Positions 4,052 through 11,446 of a DNA stretch of 15,604 nucleotides are shown here, piece after piece. The stretch comes from Propionibacteriaceae bacterium (GTDB lineage Bacteria > Actinomycetota > Actinomycetes > Propionibacteriales > Propionibacteriaceae): NCBI GenBank assembly GCA_009787035.1, contig WRGV01000002.1:1-15604 (forward strand), written 5' to 3'. The notes under the pieces are model-generated. The model made no database searches, was not told the origin of the DNA, and saw only the letters and a list, made by a program, of their open reading frames with translations. Both the position numbers and the translations under genes were made by a program. How positions within the stretch are numbered: position 1 is the stretch's first letter; the number at the start of each line of letters is the position of its first letter.

Positions 4052-4378
4052 CTACGCGCTCGCGGTGGGGTGCGCCTCGGCGGCGGGCTTGTCCGCCGGG
4101 GCGGCGGATGCAGCGTCGGTGGCCTGCGCCGGCTTGGCGTGTTCGGCATCCGAGTGGGGGCTGGCGGCCTTGCCGGGCGCGGCGGTAAGGCTGGCGGTGG
4201 AATGGTGTGAATCCGTGCTGTAGAAGCCGCTGCCCTTGAAGACGATCCCGACAGGGCTGAACACCTTGCGCAGTCGTCCCTGGCACACCGGGCACTTCGT
4301 CAACGCCGGGTCGGAGAACTTCTGGAAAACCTCGAAGTCATGATCGCACTCGGTGCAGCGGTATTCGTAGGTGGGCAT
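4052..4378 (-). CDS. FmdB-family zinc-ribbon protein, Ruc-like
   Basis: This 108-residue protein has an N-terminal FmdB/CxxC zinc ribbon: MPTYEYRCTECDHDFEVFQK with Cys8/Cys11 and Cys29/Cys32 as the four ligands, then a conserved VFSPVGIVFKGSGFYSTD segment. The last 45 or so residues are Ala/Pro/His-rich and disordered. Length, domain order and position next to the cyclo-ligase match M. tuberculosis Rv0991c (Ruc), reported to be a redox-switched chaperone whose cysteines bind zinc when reduced. By that analogy it may protect proteins during oxidative stress. The start gives the conserved MPTYEY beginning. A GAGGAG lies rather far upstream (about 13 nt), and a TATACT -10 lies inside the end of the cyclo-ligase gene. 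The function is inferred. Confidence 0.85.
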   Translation of the reverse strand: MPTYEYRCTECDHDFEVFQKFSDPALTKCPVCQGRLRKVFSPVGIVFKGSGFYSTDSHHSTASLTAAPGKAASPHSDAEHAKPAQATDAASAAPADKPAAEAHPTASA

Positions 4379-4398: not shown

Positions 4399-5013
4399 TC
4401 AGCGGTCGGCAACCTGGAAAGTATAGTCGGTGCCCCTAGAACGGCCCTGGCATGCCCGGACGCCCGACGGCGTGGCGATCGCATCCACGCGCCGGTCGTG
4501 CGGCTCGACGGGCACCCGGAGCAGCACCTCGTCCTCGTCCAGCAGCAGGCACACCGGCCCGCGGGCGTGCACCAGCGCGCGGTCATACCAGCCGCCGCCG
4601 CGTCCCAGCCGGTCGCCATCCAGCGTCCCGGCCAGACCGGGCACAAGCACGGCGTCCGCCTGGGCCAGCGCCGCCGCGCCGAGGCTGACCGACTCCCCGG
4701 CGGGCGTCCAGTCCGGCAGCCAGCCGCCCGACGCATCGCGCACGAGCCGGGGCACCAGCACGCGCACTCCGCGGTGCTCCAGCGCCGCGATCAGGGCGGC
4801 GGTGCCGGGCTCGCTGGGCCAGGATTCGTACGCGGCGACGGTGCTCACGTTCAGGCCCGCCAGCCAGGCCAGCAGCGCGTCCGTGCGTGCCGCGTCGGCG
4901 ATGTCCCTGGTCGGAGCGCGGCGCGCCCGCGCACGCACCAGGCTGCGTCGCAGGTCCGCCTTGGCGGCCCCGGTCGCGGCCCCGGAGCGTCTGTCCGGCC
5001 GCATCGTACCCAT
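4399..5013 (-). CDS. 5-formyltetrahydrofolate cyclo-ligase
   Basis: The enzyme converts 5-formyl-THF to 5,10-methenyl-THF using ATP, recycling this folate reserve in the cytosol. The 204-residue product shows the family's N-terminal KADLRRSLVRARAR helix (residues 18-31), the ATP/phosphate-binding motif GDRLGRGGGWYDR (133-145) and the C-terminal HDRRVDAIATPSGV (172-185). The start is ATG 5013, or ATG 5004 three codons in. I prefer 5013 because a TACGAT -10 lies 6 nt before it, as in a leaderless mRNA. Upstream extensions of the frame overlap the divergent MoeA-like gene and are shadow. It heads the minus-strand set with fmdB (20-nt gap). The same neighbour set occurs in mycobacteria as Rv0992c-Rv0991c. 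Confidence 0.92.
   Translation of the reverse strand: MGTMRPDRRSGAATGAAKADLRRSLVRARARRAPTRDIADAARTDALLAWLAGLNVSTVAAYESWPSEPGTAALIAALEHRGVRVLVPRLVRDASGGWLPDWTPAGESVSLGAAALAQADAVLVPGLAGTLDGDRLGRGGGWYDRALVHARGPVCLLLDEDEVLLRVPVEPHDRRVDAIATPSGVRACQGRSRGTDYTFQVADR
4420..4425 (-). promoter_or_regulatory. Candidate internal -10 (TATACT) for the fmdB gene
   Basis: On the minus strand TATACT lies in the last codons of the cyclo-ligase gene, 41 nt before the fmdB ATG. It is a near-consensus -10, but no good -35 is visible 17 nt upstream. It could give the zinc-ribbon and SAF genes their own transcription. Confidence 0.35.
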
Positions 5014-5031: not shown

Positions 5032-6309
5032 ATGGGATTGTTTGGCCGCAAGACGAACAGGCAGGATGAGGACGGCGCCGCCGAGGATGCCGTTCGGCTG
5101 GCGGATCCCCCTGCGCCGCAGATCGACGGGTTGCGCAACCTGGATGCGCACCGCGCCTGGGTGCTGTCGCAGATCACACCGTTGGCACCGCTCGGGCTCG
5201 GGCTGGTGGACGCGACCGGGCTGACGCTCGACGAAGAGCTGCGGGCCGAGGCCGAGTGCCCCGCAACGGATCAGGCGGCCGTCTCCGGGTTCGCCGTGGC
5301 CGCAGCCGGGCTGGGCGATGCGGCGGCCCGGCGGGCACAGGAGCAGGGCGCCGCCCCCGCCGCGCCCGTGGTTCCCATCTACGCCGGGCAACCGCTGCCG
5401 GAGGGGGCCGACACGGTCATCCCCGACTGGATGGCGCAGCCGTCAGCCGACGGCGTGCTGCGGCTGGTGGGCAGGGTTCGCCGGGGCGACTGGGTGCGTC
5501 CCGCGGGCCTGGATGCGCACACCGGAGACCTGCTGGCGCGGGTCGGTGACGTCATGACTCCTGCGCTGGCCGCGAGACTGGCGCAGTGCGGCTACGACCG
5601 CGTGATCGTGCGACCGCGCGTGCGGGCGATCGTCGTCGGCTTCGACGAGCCCGCGAGCGCCGCTGCGGCCGGTGCGCCCCATCCCGGCCTTCCGGCGTCG
5701 TATCTGGTTGCCATGGCCCTGCGCAACCAGGGCGTCACGGCACATCGCATCCCGGTGGCGGCCGACGACGCGGATGCGGTGCGCGAGACGATCGGCAACG
5801 AGCTGATCCGCTCCGATCTGCTGGTCTGCTGCGGAGGCCTGGAGGATCCGGCCTCACCGGTCCTGGAGGCGCTGGATGCCCTGGGGTTGCTGGATGTGGC
5901 TCCGATGGGGCTGGAGCCGGGCGGACGCTACGCGTTCGGGCTGATGGGCGAGGAACGGACGCCGCTGCTCGGGTTGCCCGGGCAGCCGCTGGCCGCGCTG
6001 ATCGGCTACCTGTCCGTCGTACGGCCCGCGCTGTGCCTGCTCGCGGGTTCGGCGGCGGATCCGGCACAGACGCTGCAGGCCGGCGGCGCACAGATGCTGC
6101 GCACGATGCTGGATCTGCCCGCCCCGGGCGACGTGGCGTGCTTCGTCCTCGGTCGGCTGGTCCACAGCGACGGCGTGCGCCCCCTGGGCATGGGCGGTCT
6201 GGCATCCATGGCAGAGCTGACGGCAGCCGACGTCATCATCGCGCTGCCGGCCGGGTGCGCCGCGGTGCGCGCCGGTGAGCCGGTGCAGTGCTGGCCGCTC
6301 GGACTGTGA
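5032..6309 (+). CDS. glp: Gephyrin/MoeA-like protein (Glp-type), probably non-catalytic
   Basis: This 425-residue protein has the MoeA fold order. An extra N-terminal tail of about 30 residues precedes MoeA domain I/II (about 36-185), with LPEGADTVI at 122-130. The MPT-binding domain follows (about 195-340), with the family's PGNP loop present as PGQPLA (315-320), and a C-terminal beta domain closes it. Working MoeA enzymes insert molybdate into adenylylated molybdopterin. Here the catalytic Asp of the usual SAMDGYA motif is Ser85 (AAVSGFA), and the usual GGVSVGxxD motif is reduced to CCGGLEDP (266-273). The downstream rimJ and membrane-protein genes match moeA1-rimJ-Rv0996 in mycobacteria. 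In Corynebacterium the counterpart Glp binds FtsZ and the membrane receptor GlpR. I infer a division scaffold. Automated annotation would call it MoeA. The ATG at 5032 is set by the leaderless -10. Confidence 0.85.
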   Translation: MGLFGRKTNRQDEDGAAEDAVRLADPPAPQIDGLRNLDAHRAWVLSQITPLAPLGLGLVDATGLTLDEELRAEAECPATDQAAVSGFAVAAAGLGDAAARRAQEQGAAPAAPVVPIYAGQPLPEGADTVIPDWMAQPSADGVLRLVGRVRRGDWVRPAGLDAHTGDLLARVGDVMTPALAARLAQCGYDRVIVRPRVRAIVVGFDEPASAAAAGAPHPGLPASYLVAMALRNQGVTAHRIPVAADDADAVRETIGNELIRSDLLVCCGGLEDPASPVLEALDALGLLDVAPMGLEPGGRYAFGLMGEERTPLLGLPGQPLAALIGYLSVVRPALCLLAGSAADPAQTLQAGGAQMLRTMLDLPAPGDVACFVLGRLVHSDGVRPLGMGGLASMAELTAADVIIALPAGCAAVRAGEPVQCWPLGL

Positions 6310-6310
6310 G

Positions 6311-7021
6311 ATGGATCCGCTGGAGCGTTGGCGGTTGCCCGACGGGGTGGTGCTGCCCGACGAGCCGGGCTGGCCGGCCGTGCTGCGCGCCGGGGCGCTC
6401 GTGCTGCGGCCGATCTATCGCTGCGACGAACGGGCCTGGATGCAGGTGCGCAGCCGCAACGCGGGCTGGCTGGGGCCATGGGAGCCGACGTGTCCGCCGC
6501 GCAGCGAGCCGTGGGGCCAGACCGTGGCACAGATGCGCCACGCGTGGTGGGCGCAGGCCCGTGCCGGCATGGCGCTGCCGTGGGTGATGGCGTGGGACGA
6601 CGGGTGGCCCGCACGTCCGGCGCCACCGCGGCGCACCCGCTTGATCGGGGCGGTCATGGTGTCGGGCATCACGTACGGGGCCGCGCAGATGGCCGACGTG
6701 GGGTACTGGATCGATGAGTCCTTCGCCGGACGCGGGCTCACGCCGCTGGCCGTGGCGCTGGCGGGTGACTATTGCCTGCGCGTGGTGCGCCTCCACCGGC
6801 TGCAGGTCGAGATCCGGCCCGAGAACACCAAGAGCCTGCGCGTGGCCGCCAAGCTCGGCCTGCGGGCCGAGGGGACGCGGCTGCGGCTCGTCCATATCGA
6901 TGGCGCCTGGCGCGACCATCTGGCGTTCGCCGTCGATGAGCAGGATCTGGACGGACCGCTGACGGCGCGGGTCCTGGGGGGCAGGCCCGTGCCCTGCGGC
7001 GGAATCGTTGAGACGGGCTGA
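6311..7021 (+). CDS. rimJ: RimJ/RimL-like GNAT N-acetyltransferase
   Basis: GNAT enzymes transfer an acetyl group from acetyl-CoA to amines; RimJ/RimL acetylate N-termini of ribosomal proteins. The 236-residue protein starts with LRAGALVLRPIYRCDERAW, typical of this family. The acetyl-CoA motif A appears as GYWIDESFAGRGLTPLA (131-147), and the RimJ/L signature as EIRPENTKSLRVAAKLGLR (167-185). Residues 50-110 are a long Pro/Trp/Arg-rich insertion between strands. The ATG lies 1 nt after the MoeA-like stop, so translation is probably coupled; a longer in-frame GTG start inside the upstream gene is less likely. Conserved linkage with the gephyrin-like gene and its membrane partner suggests that its real substrate could belong to that module. 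This last point is inference. Confidence 0.85.
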   Translation: MDPLERWRLPDGVVLPDEPGWPAVLRAGALVLRPIYRCDERAWMQVRSRNAGWLGPWEPTCPPRSEPWGQTVAQMRHAWWAQARAGMALPWVMAWDDGWPARPAPPRRTRLIGAVMVSGITYGAAQMADVGYWIDESFAGRGLTPLAVALAGDYCLRVVRLHRLQVEIRPENTKSLRVAAKLGLRAEGTRLRLVHIDGAWRDHLAFAVDEQDLDGPLTARVLGGRPVPCGGIVETG

Positions 7022-7109
7022 GGGCGTACGAGGGGGAGCAGGATACTCGTCCGAACGTCGTTTGCGCGACACTCCGTCCCGAATACCGAGCACCGGTGGC
7101 GCCGCCCCG

Positions 7110-7115
7110 TACGGT
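7110..7115 (+). promoter_or_regulatory. Leaderless-type promoter (-10 TACGGT)
   Basis: TACGGT is followed by seven bases (GGAGGGC) and then GTG at 7123, the start I propose for the membrane protein. The spacer itself is GGAGG-like, but only 2 nt from the GTG, too close for a normal Shine-Dalgarno. The leaderless reading is therefore preferred. Confidence 0.5.
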
Positions 7116-7122
7116 GGAGGGC

Positions 7123-7902
7123 GTGGGCGCACTGATCATCGGGATAATCGTGGTCGGCTGGCTTGCGTACCTGCTGCCGTGGTATCTGAAGAACTGGGAG
7201 CATCCGGTCGAGGTCGCCGACGATGCCGTCGACCGTTTCGCCGACTCGATGGTGATCGTGCGCCGCAGCGACGAGGAGCACAGCGAGGACGCCGACGCGG
7301 CACCCACCGAAATCTCCACACCGCTGCTGCGCAGCGCGGCGCGCGAAGACATCGCGATCCGGGCGCACACCGCCGTGCGGCGCCGTCGCATCGGGCTGAT
7401 CATCAACATGGTCGTCTTGGCGCTGTGCGCCGCGGCGCCGTTCGTGCTGGCCGTGCCCGGCTGGGTCGGGTTTGTGGGGCCGGTCATGCTGGTGTGCTGG
7501 GTGATCGTCTCGCACGCGTCCGTCCGCATCGTCAACCGACGTCTCGACCGGGGCATCGAGGCGCTGAGGCACGGTTGGGACGAGCAGACGACCGTGCTGT
7601 CCGCGCCGCAGACCGCCACCGTGCGCAACCGCGAGGTTCGTGAGCAGTCCATCGATCTGTCGAAGCCGATCGATTTGGGACAAAGTCTTCCCGAGCCGAT
7701 GCCTGTGGCGCCGATGACGTACGTCAACCGTCCACCGCGCTCGGTTCGTCCCATCGACCTGGCTGCTCCGGTGGTGCGTCCCACGGCGCCGCGATTCCCC
7801 GTCACCGACACGTACCCGCAGGATGCGCTGCCGTTCGGTTCGGCGACGCTGGCGAAGACGGACGGCGATGAGGTCACGACCTCGCGCGCCGTGGGTGAGT
7901 GA
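7123..7902 (+). CDS. glpR: Membrane protein, GlpR-type gephyrin-like protein receptor
   Basis: This 259-residue protein has an N-terminal membrane helix (about 3-22, ALIIGIIVVGWLAYLLPWYL). A charged, acidic segment (25-85) follows, including HPVEVADDAVDRFADSM, then an RRRR stop and two more helices (about 90-109 and 113-130). The C-terminal tail of about 125 residues is Pro-rich and polar. Size, topology and position after moeA-like and rimJ genes match M. tuberculosis Rv0996 and the Corynebacterium receptor GlpR, which tethers the gephyrin-like Glp to the membrane at division sites. It is unrelated to the glycerol repressor also called GlpR. I chose GTG 7123 because a longer start at 7096 would add a Pro-rich segment in front of the membrane helix and lacks any promoter or ribosome binding site. 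It converges on the enolase-like gene with a 21-nt gap. Confidence 0.75.
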   Translation: MGALIIGIIVVGWLAYLLPWYLKNWEHPVEVADDAVDRFADSMVIVRRSDEEHSEDADAAPTEISTPLLRSAAREDIAIRAHTAVRRRRIGLIINMVVLALCAAAPFVLAVPGWVGFVGPVMLVCWVIVSHASVRIVNRRLDRGIEALRHGWDEQTTVLSAPQTATVRNREVREQSIDLSKPIDLGQSLPEPMPVAPMTYVNRPPRSVRPIDLAAPVVRPTAPRFPVTDTYPQDALPFGSATLAKTDGDEVTTSRAVGE

Positions 7903-7923: not shown

Positions 7924-9189
7924 TCAGGCCATGCCGAAGGGAAGATCGGACGTGTTGGCCGCGATCTGAATCAGCCGGTTGTACTTGTTGACGCGTTCGG
8001 AGCGCGCCGGAGCCCCGGCGGCCAGCTGGCCGCAGCCTGAGGCGATCGCCAGATCCGCGATGAACGTGTCGCCGGTTTCCCCCGGGCTCTGCGTGATGAT
8101 CTGGGCGTAGCCGAGGTCGTTGCACAGCCGCAGCGACTGGAGGGCCTGGCTGACGGTGGCGACGTGGTCGAGCTTGAGAGCGGCCGCGTTGGCGATTCCG
8201 GTGTCGGCAGCCCGCTGGATGCGCTCGGGGTGCGCGCAGCAGAGCTCGTCGGCCACCAGCTGCACCCGGCCGCCGAGCGCGTCGGTCAGCGACTGCCAGC
8301 CCAGGATGTCGTCGGGGGACAGACCGTCCTCGATGCTCCAGATGGGGAAGGCGTCGACCAGCTCGGTGTACCACGAGATCATGTCGGTGCTCGACAGCGT
8401 CTCGTTGCCCACCTGGTAGTTGCCGTCGTCGCGGCGCAGCGCGGATGCGGCAACATCGATCGCGATCGCGATGCCGTCGGTGCCCGCGGAGTAGCCCGCG
8501 TCGTGGATGGCGTTGATGATCAGCCGCAGCGCCATCTCGGGCTTGGTGAGGCCGCACCAGAATCCGCCGTCGTCGCTGACCCCCATGGTCAGGCCATCGC
8601 GGTCGAGGCGGCGGTGGATCGCATGGTAGACCTCCACGCCGGCACGGACGGCGTCCGCCATCGAGGGCGCGCCGATCGGGCAGATCATCAGGTCGGCGAA
8701 CGACAGGTGGTGCGGAGCCAGCGCACTGCCCGTGAGCATGCTAAGCACGGGCAGCGGCAGCCGGCGCTTCTGGCCCGTGCCGGGCAGCCACGCGTGCACC
8801 GAACGGCCTGCCGACCGGGCCAGGGCTCGGGCCACAGCGATGGAGACGCCGAGGGTGGCGTTCGCCCCGAGCGGGGGCATGTCCGGATCGGCGTCCAGGC
8901 TGATCAGGGCCTGGTCGATCTCGGCGAGATCGAACCACGGGCGTCCGGCCAGCGTCGGCGCGATCAGGTGCTTGATGCGCTCGCGGGCGGTCAACACGCC
9001 ATCGCCGTCGAACCGGGTGACGTCCTGGTCGCGCAGTTCGAGCGCGTGCCCCGGGCACAGCGTCGGGCCCGTGGGGACGGTTGCGCTGGCGCGGGTGCCG
9101 TCGGTCAGCTGGATGCCGACCTCCAACGTGGGCCGTGCGATGGAATCGATGATCTCCAGGGCCGATACGCATGCGATCTCGAAAGCCAC
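7924..9189 (-). CDS. Divergent enolase paralogue with altered active site
   Basis: This 421-residue protein aligns along its whole length with enolase, which interconverts 2-phosphoglycerate and phosphoenolpyruvate. Framework motifs survive: PLGANATLGVSIAVARA, the metal-ligand Asp245 (AIDVAAS), Glu287 (SIEDGL) and Asp313 (LVADEL), and the catalytic base Lys339. Other key sites are changed. The SHRSGETED signature reads TQSPGETGD (366-374), so His, Arg and Ser are lost. The final catalytic Lys (GQIKTG) is Ala390. The two acidic residues of QEFM and GDEGGF are both Asp (166, 207). The GGAHA loop reads GSALA (154-158), and the mobile SGASTG loop is altered. The start is GTG with AGGAAGG 7 nt upstream. 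It does not look like a normal glycolytic enolase; a true eno gene should exist elsewhere. Actinobacterial eno is often next to a ftsB-like gene, absent here. Confidence 0.85.
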   Translation of the reverse strand: MAFEIACVSALEIIDSIARPTLEVGIQLTDGTRASATVPTGPTLCPGHALELRDQDVTRFDGDGVLTARERIKHLIAPTLAGRPWFDLAEIDQALISLDADPDMPPLGANATLGVSIAVARALARSAGRSVHAWLPGTGQKRRLPLPVLSMLTGSALAPHHLSFADLMICPIGAPSMADAVRAGVEVYHAIHRRLDRDGLTMGVSDDGGFWCGLTKPEMALRLIINAIHDAGYSAGTDGIAIAIDVAASALRRDDGNYQVGNETLSSTDMISWYTELVDAFPIWSIEDGLSPDDILGWQSLTDALGGRVQLVADELCCAHPERIQRAADTGIANAAALKLDHVATVSQALQSLRLCNDLGYAQIITQSPGETGDTFIADLAIASGCGQLAAGAPARSERVNKYNRLIQIAANTSDLPFGMA

Positions 9190-9862: not shown

Positions 9863-11446
9863 ATGGGCCTGGCTGGAATCCGTCGCTACCTGGCGACGCT
9901 GCGTCTGGCGGTGCTGTTTGCCGTGCAGCTGTGGTGGCTGCGCCGCACGAGGTTCCTGCGCGGCCAGCGCCAGGAACAGGCGGCCAGTGCCCTCTATGCG
10001 CGGCAGGGCCGCGAGTTCGTCGCTTTTGCCACGCGGATGGGCGGCCTGATCGTCAAGCTCGGCCAGTTCCTGAGCGTGCGCATCGATCTGCTGCCCAAGG
10101 AGTACATCGACGAGCTGTCGCGGTTGCAGGACGCGCTGCCGGGGCTGCCAGCCGAGCAGATCATCCGCGTCATCGAGGCTGAACTGCACCGTCCGCTGGC
10201 CCAGATCTACCGCACGTTCGACCGTCTGCCCGTGGCTGCGGCCTCGCTGGGCCAGGTGCACCGGGCGACGCTGCCCGACGGCACGCCGGTGGCGGTCAAG
10301 GTGCTGCGTCCCGGCATCGAGAAGGTGGTTGCCACCGATCTGACGTCGCTGCGCGCCATCCTGCGGCTGTTCGACCGCTTCTTCCACCTCAGCCGCATGA
10401 TCGACCTCGACGTGCTGGAGGCCGACTTCACCGCGACATTCACCAACGAGCTCGACTATGCGCTGGAGGGGCTCCACGCCGAGACGTTCCAGCGCAACCT
10501 GCTGTGGGACATGCATGTCGATATTCCGCAGATCTTCTGGGAACGGTCGTCGCACCGCGTGCTCACCATGGAGTACATGGACGGCGTGCGCATCGACGAC
10601 CTGGCCGCTATCGACGCGTTCGGCATCGACCGTCACGAACTGGCGGTCAACCTGGCCGGGGTCTTCTTCCACATGGTGCTGACCGACGGCTTCTTCCACG
10701 CCGATCCGCACCCCGGCAACGTGTTCGTGCGCCGCGACGGTGTCATCCAGTTGATCGACTTCGGCATGGTCGGCACGGTGACGGACGCCGACCGCGCCCG
10801 GTACGCCGACCTGGTCATGGCGATGACGCGCCACGACGCGATGGGCATTGTCCGCGCGCTGCGCGCGCTCGGGTTCTTGGGGCCGGGTGCCGACCTGCGC
10901 CGTCTGGCCACCATGATCGAGCCGTACATCGCGGCCATCGTCGGCGATGTGTCCCGGATGTACACCTCGGCCTCCGTGGTGGGGTCGATGATGTCCGGCT
11001 CGTTCGACCTGACCATCGATGCGGCGACGCTGGAACAGATGCAGCGCTTCATCTTCACCCAGCCGATCGTGCTGCCGGGGCAGGCGACCTTCCTGGGCAA
11101 GGCGCTGGTCACGGTCGTTGGCCTGTGCCTGCGCCTGGATCCCGACCTCGATCTGTTGGCCATCTGCGGGCCCTATGTGGCCGAGGCGACCCAGGCGGGG
11201 GCCTTTGAGTGGCTGACCAAGCGCGTCGGTGACGGTGCCGCCATGGCCCGCAACGCTGTTCCCACGGCGCGGCGGCTGCTCGCGTTGGCCGAGCGCCTCG
11301 ATGACGGCACGTTCGAGCTGGAGCTGGGGGAGGCCGTCGAGCGCCGCCTGCGCGCGTCCCAGCAGCAACAGACCCGGCACATCGTCCGCGCGGTGGCTGC
11401 GCTGGTCGCCGGTGCCGTCGTGGTGCTGCGCTGGCGCCGGCGCTGA
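9863..11446 (+). CDS. ABC1/UbiB/AarF-family atypical protein kinase-like protein
   Basis: This 527-residue protein belongs to the UbiB/ADCK atypical kinase family. Motifs in order are the KxGQ motif KLGQFLSVR (65-73), the Ala-rich loop AAASLGQVHRA (125-135) that replaces the usual Gly-rich loop, VAVKVLRPG with Lys146, NELDYALEG (195-203) with the ExD motif, HADPHPGN (279-286) as catalytic loop and LIDFGMVG (297-304) with the metal-binding DFG. All residues expected for ATP binding are present. Known relatives support ubiquinone biosynthesis or lipid handling, mostly by ATPase activity. Actinobacteria make menaquinone, so the substrate is unknown. A short hydrophobic segment (507-523) followed by RWRRR at the very end suggests a C-terminal membrane anchor. 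It is linked to the AbrB-like gene and also has its own candidate promoter. Confidence 0.9.
   Translation: MGLAGIRRYLATLRLAVLFAVQLWWLRRTRFLRGQRQEQAASALYARQGREFVAFATRMGGLIVKLGQFLSVRIDLLPKEYIDELSRLQDALPGLPAEQIIRVIEAELHRPLAQIYRTFDRLPVAAASLGQVHRATLPDGTPVAVKVLRPGIEKVVATDLTSLRAILRLFDRFFHLSRMIDLDVLEADFTATFTNELDYALEGLHAETFQRNLLWDMHVDIPQIFWERSSHRVLTMEYMDGVRIDDLAAIDAFGIDRHELAVNLAGVFFHMVLTDGFFHADPHPGNVFVRRDGVIQLIDFGMVGTVTDADRARYADLVMAMTRHDAMGIVRALRALGFLGPGADLRRLATMIEPYIAAIVGDVSRMYTSASVVGSMMSGSFDLTIDAATLEQMQRFIFTQPIVLPGQATFLGKALVTVVGLCLRLDPDLDLLAICGPYVAEATQAGAFEWLTKRVGDGAAMARNAVPTARRLLALAERLDDGTFELELGEAVERRLRASQQQQTRHIVRAVAALVAGAVVVLRWRRR

Follow-up and report, generated by a model that had tools for sequence, protein, structure and literature searches.

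The stretch of DNA analyzed here, referred to below as the window, comprises 15,604 nucleotides of contig WRGV01000002.1 from a Propionibacteriaceae bacterium (assembly GCA_009787035.1) and encodes, in this order, a protein of the MoeA fold (Glp), an acetyltransferase resembling RimJ and a membrane protein related to GlpR and SepX. We consider it likely that these genes form a Glp-RimJ-GlpR (SepX) division module in which Glp acts solely as a scaffold, and that the module is one case of a wider decay that followed the departure of moaC from the operon. With slightly less assurance, we regard it as probable that in much of the Actinomycetes Glp is still both the only molybdotransferase and a division protein, that scaffold-only forms arose repeatedly in glp operons that moaC had left, and that domain II was cut out in one family. 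An earlier note on this DNA had recognized the module and the degeneration of its MoeA-like protein; it missed that catalytic decay goes together with a lack of moaC at the locus, and that Glp is the only MoeA found in many relatives.

A degenerate MoeA-like protein in a recurrent locus

The Glp-like protein (positions 5032 to 6309, forward strand, 425 amino acids) has been identified by Pfam and NCBIfam profiles and by alignment to Escherichia coli MoeA. It exceeds the Pfam cut-offs for MoeA_N, MoCF_biosynth and MoeA_C, and among NCBIfam models it matches NF045515 (Glp_gephyrin) best, with 194 bits, below the threshold of 475. The RimJ-like GNAT acetyltransferase (6311 to 7021, forward strand; Acetyltransf_3, E=2.8e-16), which likely starts at the ATG at 6311 while its open reading frame is listed from a GTG at 6275, lies between glp and glpR, which share one locus. 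The third gene (7096 to 7902, forward strand) encodes a membrane protein of 268 amino acids, without any Pfam match, that was assigned by hydropathy and by its best NCBIfam model, NF050099 (SepX_GlpR_2; E=6.7e-17, 62.3 bits, below the cut-off of 150). The order of these genes recurs in most stretches examined from other families; hence the arrangement in the window is not a matter of chance, and the recurrence, together with the two best models, both below their cut-offs, bears out the proposal of a Glp-GlpR-type module. The window protein is assigned as a Glp orthologue by its locus and similarity, not by the FtsZ-binding loop.

To score the active site, proteins were aligned to E. coli MoeA from NC_000913 at seven positions, D59, T100, R137, D142, E188, D228 and D259, which we take to be those defined by E. 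coli mutant structures. In the window Glp these positions read S, A, R, D, P, D and S, so that three of the seven (R137, D142, D228) are kept and the whole MoeA catalytic set D59, T100, E188 and D259 is replaced (S, A, P, S); furthermore, the GGVSVG motif has become GGLEDP. These replacements uphold the claim of catalytic degeneracy, and the protein most likely retains the MoeA fold but no longer inserts molybdenum, as judged from its residues. Ser85, aligned to Asp59 (the same position is Asn in PDB chain 2nqk), had been offered as a mark of the module, which was an overstatement. At position 59, the other 19 Glps of the window's family (f1; the codes f1-f32 label the genome families of the survey) carry Asp in 16 cases and Ser (G013), Pro and Glu in one case each. 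The 16 include the sister genome G001, whose Glp is 52% identical to that of the window over its length and reads D, A, R, D, P, G and S at the seven sites. Ser85 has therefore been dropped as a signature; it is a single stage in a decay that affects the whole family, and not its key. Three other Glps of this family that lack moaC also score below the NF045515 cut-off of 475 (187-284 bits).

Retained molybdotransferase activity through an atypical active site, a very improbable alternative, would have to work with D59, T100, E188 and D259 all replaced and GGVSVG lost. What speaks for it is the gene content of the window genome (2.14 Mb, 393 contigs, 81% complete), where profile search at this completeness found no second MoeA and where contig C312 (L049) encodes a Tat-signal DMSO-reductase-like protein with Molybdopterin, Molydop_binding and Fe4S4 domains. 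In addition, the start of a MogA-like frame, cut by the contig end, lies behind a FecCD-type transporter on contig C237 (L050); its PF00994 score of 23.3 is below the Pfam threshold of 26.6. The search for other MoeA and molybdenum-cofactor (Moco) genes proposed in the earlier note, in which profiles found no MoaA or MoaC either, thus returned a mixed picture, which a genome 81% complete cannot decide. A further, intact MoeA is present in the sister G001, together with moaC-mog-moaE-moaA genes clustered next to those of nitrate reductase subunits. We retain the reading of the window Glp as a MoeA-fold protein that has most likely lost catalysis.

Divergent from glp are the genes of 5-formyltetrahydrofolate cyclo-ligase (MTHFS; 4399 to 5013, reverse strand), whose start, if placed at the ATG at 5013, is separated from the glp start by 18 bases, and of an FmdB-type zinc-ribbon protein (4052 to 4378, reverse strand), both recognized by domain matches; gene order and strands are as originally described. 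The order of reverse-strand MTHFS followed by glp-rimJ-glpR is seen across the class. Downstream, an enolase gene (7924-9189; TIGR01060, 370 bits, cut-off 300) is convergent with glpR, and an ABC1-type kinase-like protein is encoded at 9863-11446, behind an AbrB-type protein.

Linkage to moaC and the state of the active site

The pattern across relatives comes from two profile searches, one of 37 relatives (window genome included) for the MoeA_N, GlpR, MoaC, Molybdopterin and MoaA domains and one of 176 class genomes (window genome included; the others at least 97% complete) for MoeA_N, GlpR and MoaC. GlpR was detected in 35/37 relatives (E<=0.01) and 147/176 class genomes (E<=1e-9). Loci were examined in 120 extracted stretches and in the search loci; outside the 37 relatives they were taken from 85 of 170 further class genomes, picked for family spread and not at random. 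This resulted in 108 Glp-locus rows, to which the relatives contributed 33, further class genomes 74 and a metagenome-assembled genome (MAG) labelled Mycobacterium one. Two main locus types emerged, glp-moaC-rimJ-glpR and glp-rimJ-glpR. When the seven sites were scored in each row, with Glu allowed at 259, the active site was intact in 70 of the 71 Glps beside moaC and in none of the 37 without it (Fisher value 3e-28, kinship ignored). Seven of these 37 rows are truncated f21 proteins (see below), so their missing sites reflect one deletion. Under a four-site rule, built post hoc on D59, T100, E188 and D228, which are kept in all 31 other MoeAs examined, the site is intact in 71/71 Glps beside moaC and 0/37 without it.

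Three loci were left out of this count, namely G007 (Glp split over two contigs, the front half intact and the back half beside moaC), G004 (contig ending before the neighbors; broken site) and G047 (intact and beside moaC, in a locus divided between contigs). The following could not be counted: G003 and G015 (no MoeA found by profile search); G079, G114, G150, G159, G185 and G169 (rimJ-glpR without glp in the extracted stretch); and, in f28, G097, G142 and G178 (MoeA-moaC with no rimJ or glpR within 10-11 kb) and G195 (short loci only).

To take kinship into account, a tree was built from RimJ, GlpR and MTHFS, with Glp left out. It holds 107 rows, twelve of them with under half of the columns filled, and 106 are scored; G007 is present but unscored, and G032 and G034 are excluded for too little marker sequence. 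On the best tree, moaC linkage and intactness change 11 times each, and seven independent pairs on well-supported branches all point in the same direction (p=0.0156). A quicker tree gave five agreeing pairs of five, too few to reach 0.05. A simple link between Glp decay and genome-wide Moco was also considered and replaced by linkage at the locus: 18 of the 37 broken Glps occur in genomes with moaC elsewhere, each of which has another MoeA, and it is therefore the linkage of moaC at the locus, not the Moco status of the genome, that tracks decay.

At the intact end of the range, among the 70 moaC-linked genomes for which MoeA_N (PF03453) proteins were counted, 42, belonging to 14 families, have Glp as their only one; G069 was counted as a two-MoeA genome on a partial match at 5.5e-4. 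All 42 keep D59, T100, E188 and D228, and the three tested exceed the NF045515 cut-off (549-594 bits against 475). Sole-MoeA relatives such as G008, G010, G011, G021 and G026 have PF00384 proteins with much stronger matches than the NuoG-like ones (6e-67 to 7e-60 and beyond; 1e-57 in G010). If the Moco pathway works in such cells, Glp would have to perform the MoeA step. Should Glp indeed be the sole intact MoeA of many actinobacteria, the published view (PMC11733289) that two or more copies of MoeA occur in bacteria with Glp, and the prediction made there that Glp lacks a second job, would need revision; cofactor synthesis and division could then be coupled through a single protein.

At the other end, MoaA and MoaC were jointly found by profile search in 25 of the 37 relatives and jointly missed in 12, among them six genomes of 95-100% completeness (G013, G014, G016, G017 and G018, 98-100%; G004, 95%). 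All six keep glp and glpR, which is the best evidence that a decayed Glp has a role apart from Moco and bears out what had been proposed for the module. Each has one PF00384 match (3e-24 to 7e-28), read as NuoG; other molybdoenzyme families were not searched. The same genomes bear on the idea that glp in the window is a decaying remnant without function. Strong divergence and a score below the NCBI cut-off would agree with it; it is nevertheless highly unlikely, given that relatives 98-100% complete without moaA and moaC still keep glp and that the window gene is a full-length open frame with a conserved position and N-terminal motif, whose sister protein is 52% identical over its length.

In f21, of which 17 genomes were sampled, the catalytic domain II is missing from all seven Glps examined and the other domains remain, as judged by comparison with E. 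coli MoeA and, for one protein, by Pfam. In E. coli numbering the deletion runs from about 41 to 139 (in G121 from 45 to 142) and nearly coincides with domain II as published for Corynebacterium glutamicum Glp (46-145); proteins of about 298 amino acids are left. The f21 genomes measure 1.2-2.2 Mb, and at the loci examined (L171, L172, L173, L123, L136, L140, L141) Glp lies between MTHFS and rimJ-glpR.

Some loci depart from the two main types. In G005, G006 and G017 (L061, L062, L069) no rimJ was seen between glp and glpR, and in the f27 loci L117, L124, L129, L131 and L135 and in L132 (G169) rimJ-glpR is retained and glp was not found in the extracted stretch. In the f28 loci L168, L169 and L170, MoeA stands beside moaC with no rimJ or glpR in the extracted stretch, possibly the opposite loss, with the enzyme kept and the division role lost. 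One MAG labelled Mycobacterium (the label may be wrong) has glp-moaC-rimJ-glpR (L003), unlike the five f7 genomes examined, which are presumably Mycobacteriaceae-like; a scan of genome contigs for close relatives gave this one locus only.

The survey would be accounted for by an ancestral Glp that was both a molybdotransferase, encoded in a glp-moaC-rimJ-glpR operon, and a division protein. moaC would leave the operon where cells lose the Moco pathway or supply it with a different MoeA, after which the active site would decay and the scaffold role alone would be kept. The natural series of intact, decayed, domain II-deleted and locus-absent Glps represents ready separation-of-function material.

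Predicted contacts of the module and evidence against the proposed role

The window GlpR has hydropathy peaks at 9-27, 102-120 and 127-145, and as region 102-145 is long enough for two stretches, three transmembrane stretches are predicted; the linker at 31-93 (intrinsically disordered region 1, IDR1) is acidic (pI 4.55). FtsZ of the window genome ends in DDDDLDVPGFMK, resembling the tails of its relatives. By analogy with C. glutamicum, from which dimerization, GlpR binding and septal location are carried over, the window Glp would most likely dimerize and serve as a scaffold, binding the membrane protein GlpR at the septum and possibly reaching the FtsZ ring, directly or through GlpR.

Several observations weigh against this reading and against the scheme of decay behind it. 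Only 20 of the 31 other MoeAs, encoded outside the Glp locus, pass the seven-site rule (nine of the 11 failures are D142E and two R137V), which thus asks for more than catalysis requires. The only moaC-linked exception to the seven-site rule, G034 (D142A), is the sole MoeA of its genome and absent from the tree; with its single change it is the nearest case to a moaC genome depending on an altered Glp. The f7 Glps retain most sites though they lack moaC, which makes the decay graded, and G020, a sole-MoeA genome, is a counter-example in that its PF00384 matches are no better than 2e-23. The bifunctional-first polarity is our inference, and the tree is not rooted. As for the module itself, the window Glp and GlpR both fall under the NCBI cut-offs, the C-terminal tail of GlpR (138-268, IDR2) has a pI of 6.93 and is not basic, as compared with a published pI of 10.87 in C. 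glutamicum, and an AlphaFold2 monomer of the window Glp, from a two-row alignment, reached a mean pLDDT of 49. Finally, the hairpin residues M361 and Y369 of C. glutamicum Glp correspond to V and a gap in the window protein, whose hairpin is shortened, with Leu360 kept.

Because of this shortening, direct FtsZ contact is not transferable from C. glutamicum, a point on which the earlier note is not supported. M361 or Y369 varies in most of the 101 aligned Glp-locus proteins, so the hairpin has been discarded as a universal Glp mark, and its loss in the window may mean little. The proline-rich hinge 2 (P182 and P184 in C. glutamicum) retains one of its two prolines in the window Glp; P182 is present in 97/101 aligned Glp-locus proteins compared with 11/30 other MoeAs.

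The N-terminus of the window Glp (MGLFGRKTN, positions 5032 to 5058, forward strand) carries a motif, M[AGP]LF, that emerged from comparison across the Glp rows. It was found in 18 of 19 f1 rows, the sole miss being the C-terminal half in G007, and in none of the 89 rows of other families or the one from the Mycobacterium-labelled MAG (109 rows in all). The Glp of G004, outside the 18/19 count, also carries it, and basic residues usually follow in f1 Glps. As a guess, the motif may be an added contact of f1 Glps. This raises the prospect of a rewired module, in which Glp still partners GlpR, does not bind FtsZ directly and gains another contact, to the membrane or another protein, through M[AGP]LF. 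Such rewiring would agree with the shortened hairpin, in which M361 is V and Y369 is absent, and with the restriction of the motif to f1; we nevertheless think it rather unlikely, as the FtsZ tail of the window genome is well conserved and the variability of the hairpin residues deprives their absence of much meaning. GlpR-linked scaffolding by the window Glp thus remains the likely role by analogy.

Relation to known systems

In the parts of PMC10522489 available to us, C. glutamicum Glp is described as contacting the FtsZ tail through a hairpin of domain IV and as binding GlpR in the nanomolar range, both interactions being lost upon hairpin deletion, and glp and glpR are reported to occur together across Actinomycetes in a conserved context. 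The extension of the module beyond corynebacteria, put forward earlier for this window, is thus correct and is not new, its spread being already in print (PMC10522489; for SepX, the part of PMC8748795 available). No paper linking moaC to Glp catalysis was found in the open-licence literature, figures and supplements being outside the scope; the term moaC is absent from the text of PMC10522489, whose Extended Data Fig. 6 (gene contexts) may show the order.

The C. glutamicum system (PMC10522489, as available; PDB 8bve/8bvf) resembles the window in the MoeA fold and in having glp and glpR in one locus, in the three hydrophobic stretches and acidic first linker of GlpR and in the loss of D259. 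C. glutamicum Glp has also lost D228, which the window protein keeps; the latter differs in the loss of D59, T100 and E188, in the absence of the M361/Y369 hairpin and in its f1-specific N-terminal motif, and its GlpR differs in the tail, which is not basic. SepX of Streptomyces venezuelae is, like GlpR, a membrane division protein, according to the accessible part of PMC8748795. In NCBIfam the two proteins share a single name. In the three f18 genomes examined, which we assume to be Streptomyces-like, Glp is beside moaC and intact, unlike in the window. E. coli MoeA and other actinobacterial MoeAs share fold and domains with the window Glp; all 31 of the latter keep D59, T100, E188 and D228, of which the window Glp has only D228. 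Animal gephyrin also combines the MoeA fold with scaffolding and has a membrane receptor, as noted in PMC10522489. It keeps catalysis, for which the window Glp lacks the residues, and the moaC-linked Glps would be its closer bacterial match in having both roles.

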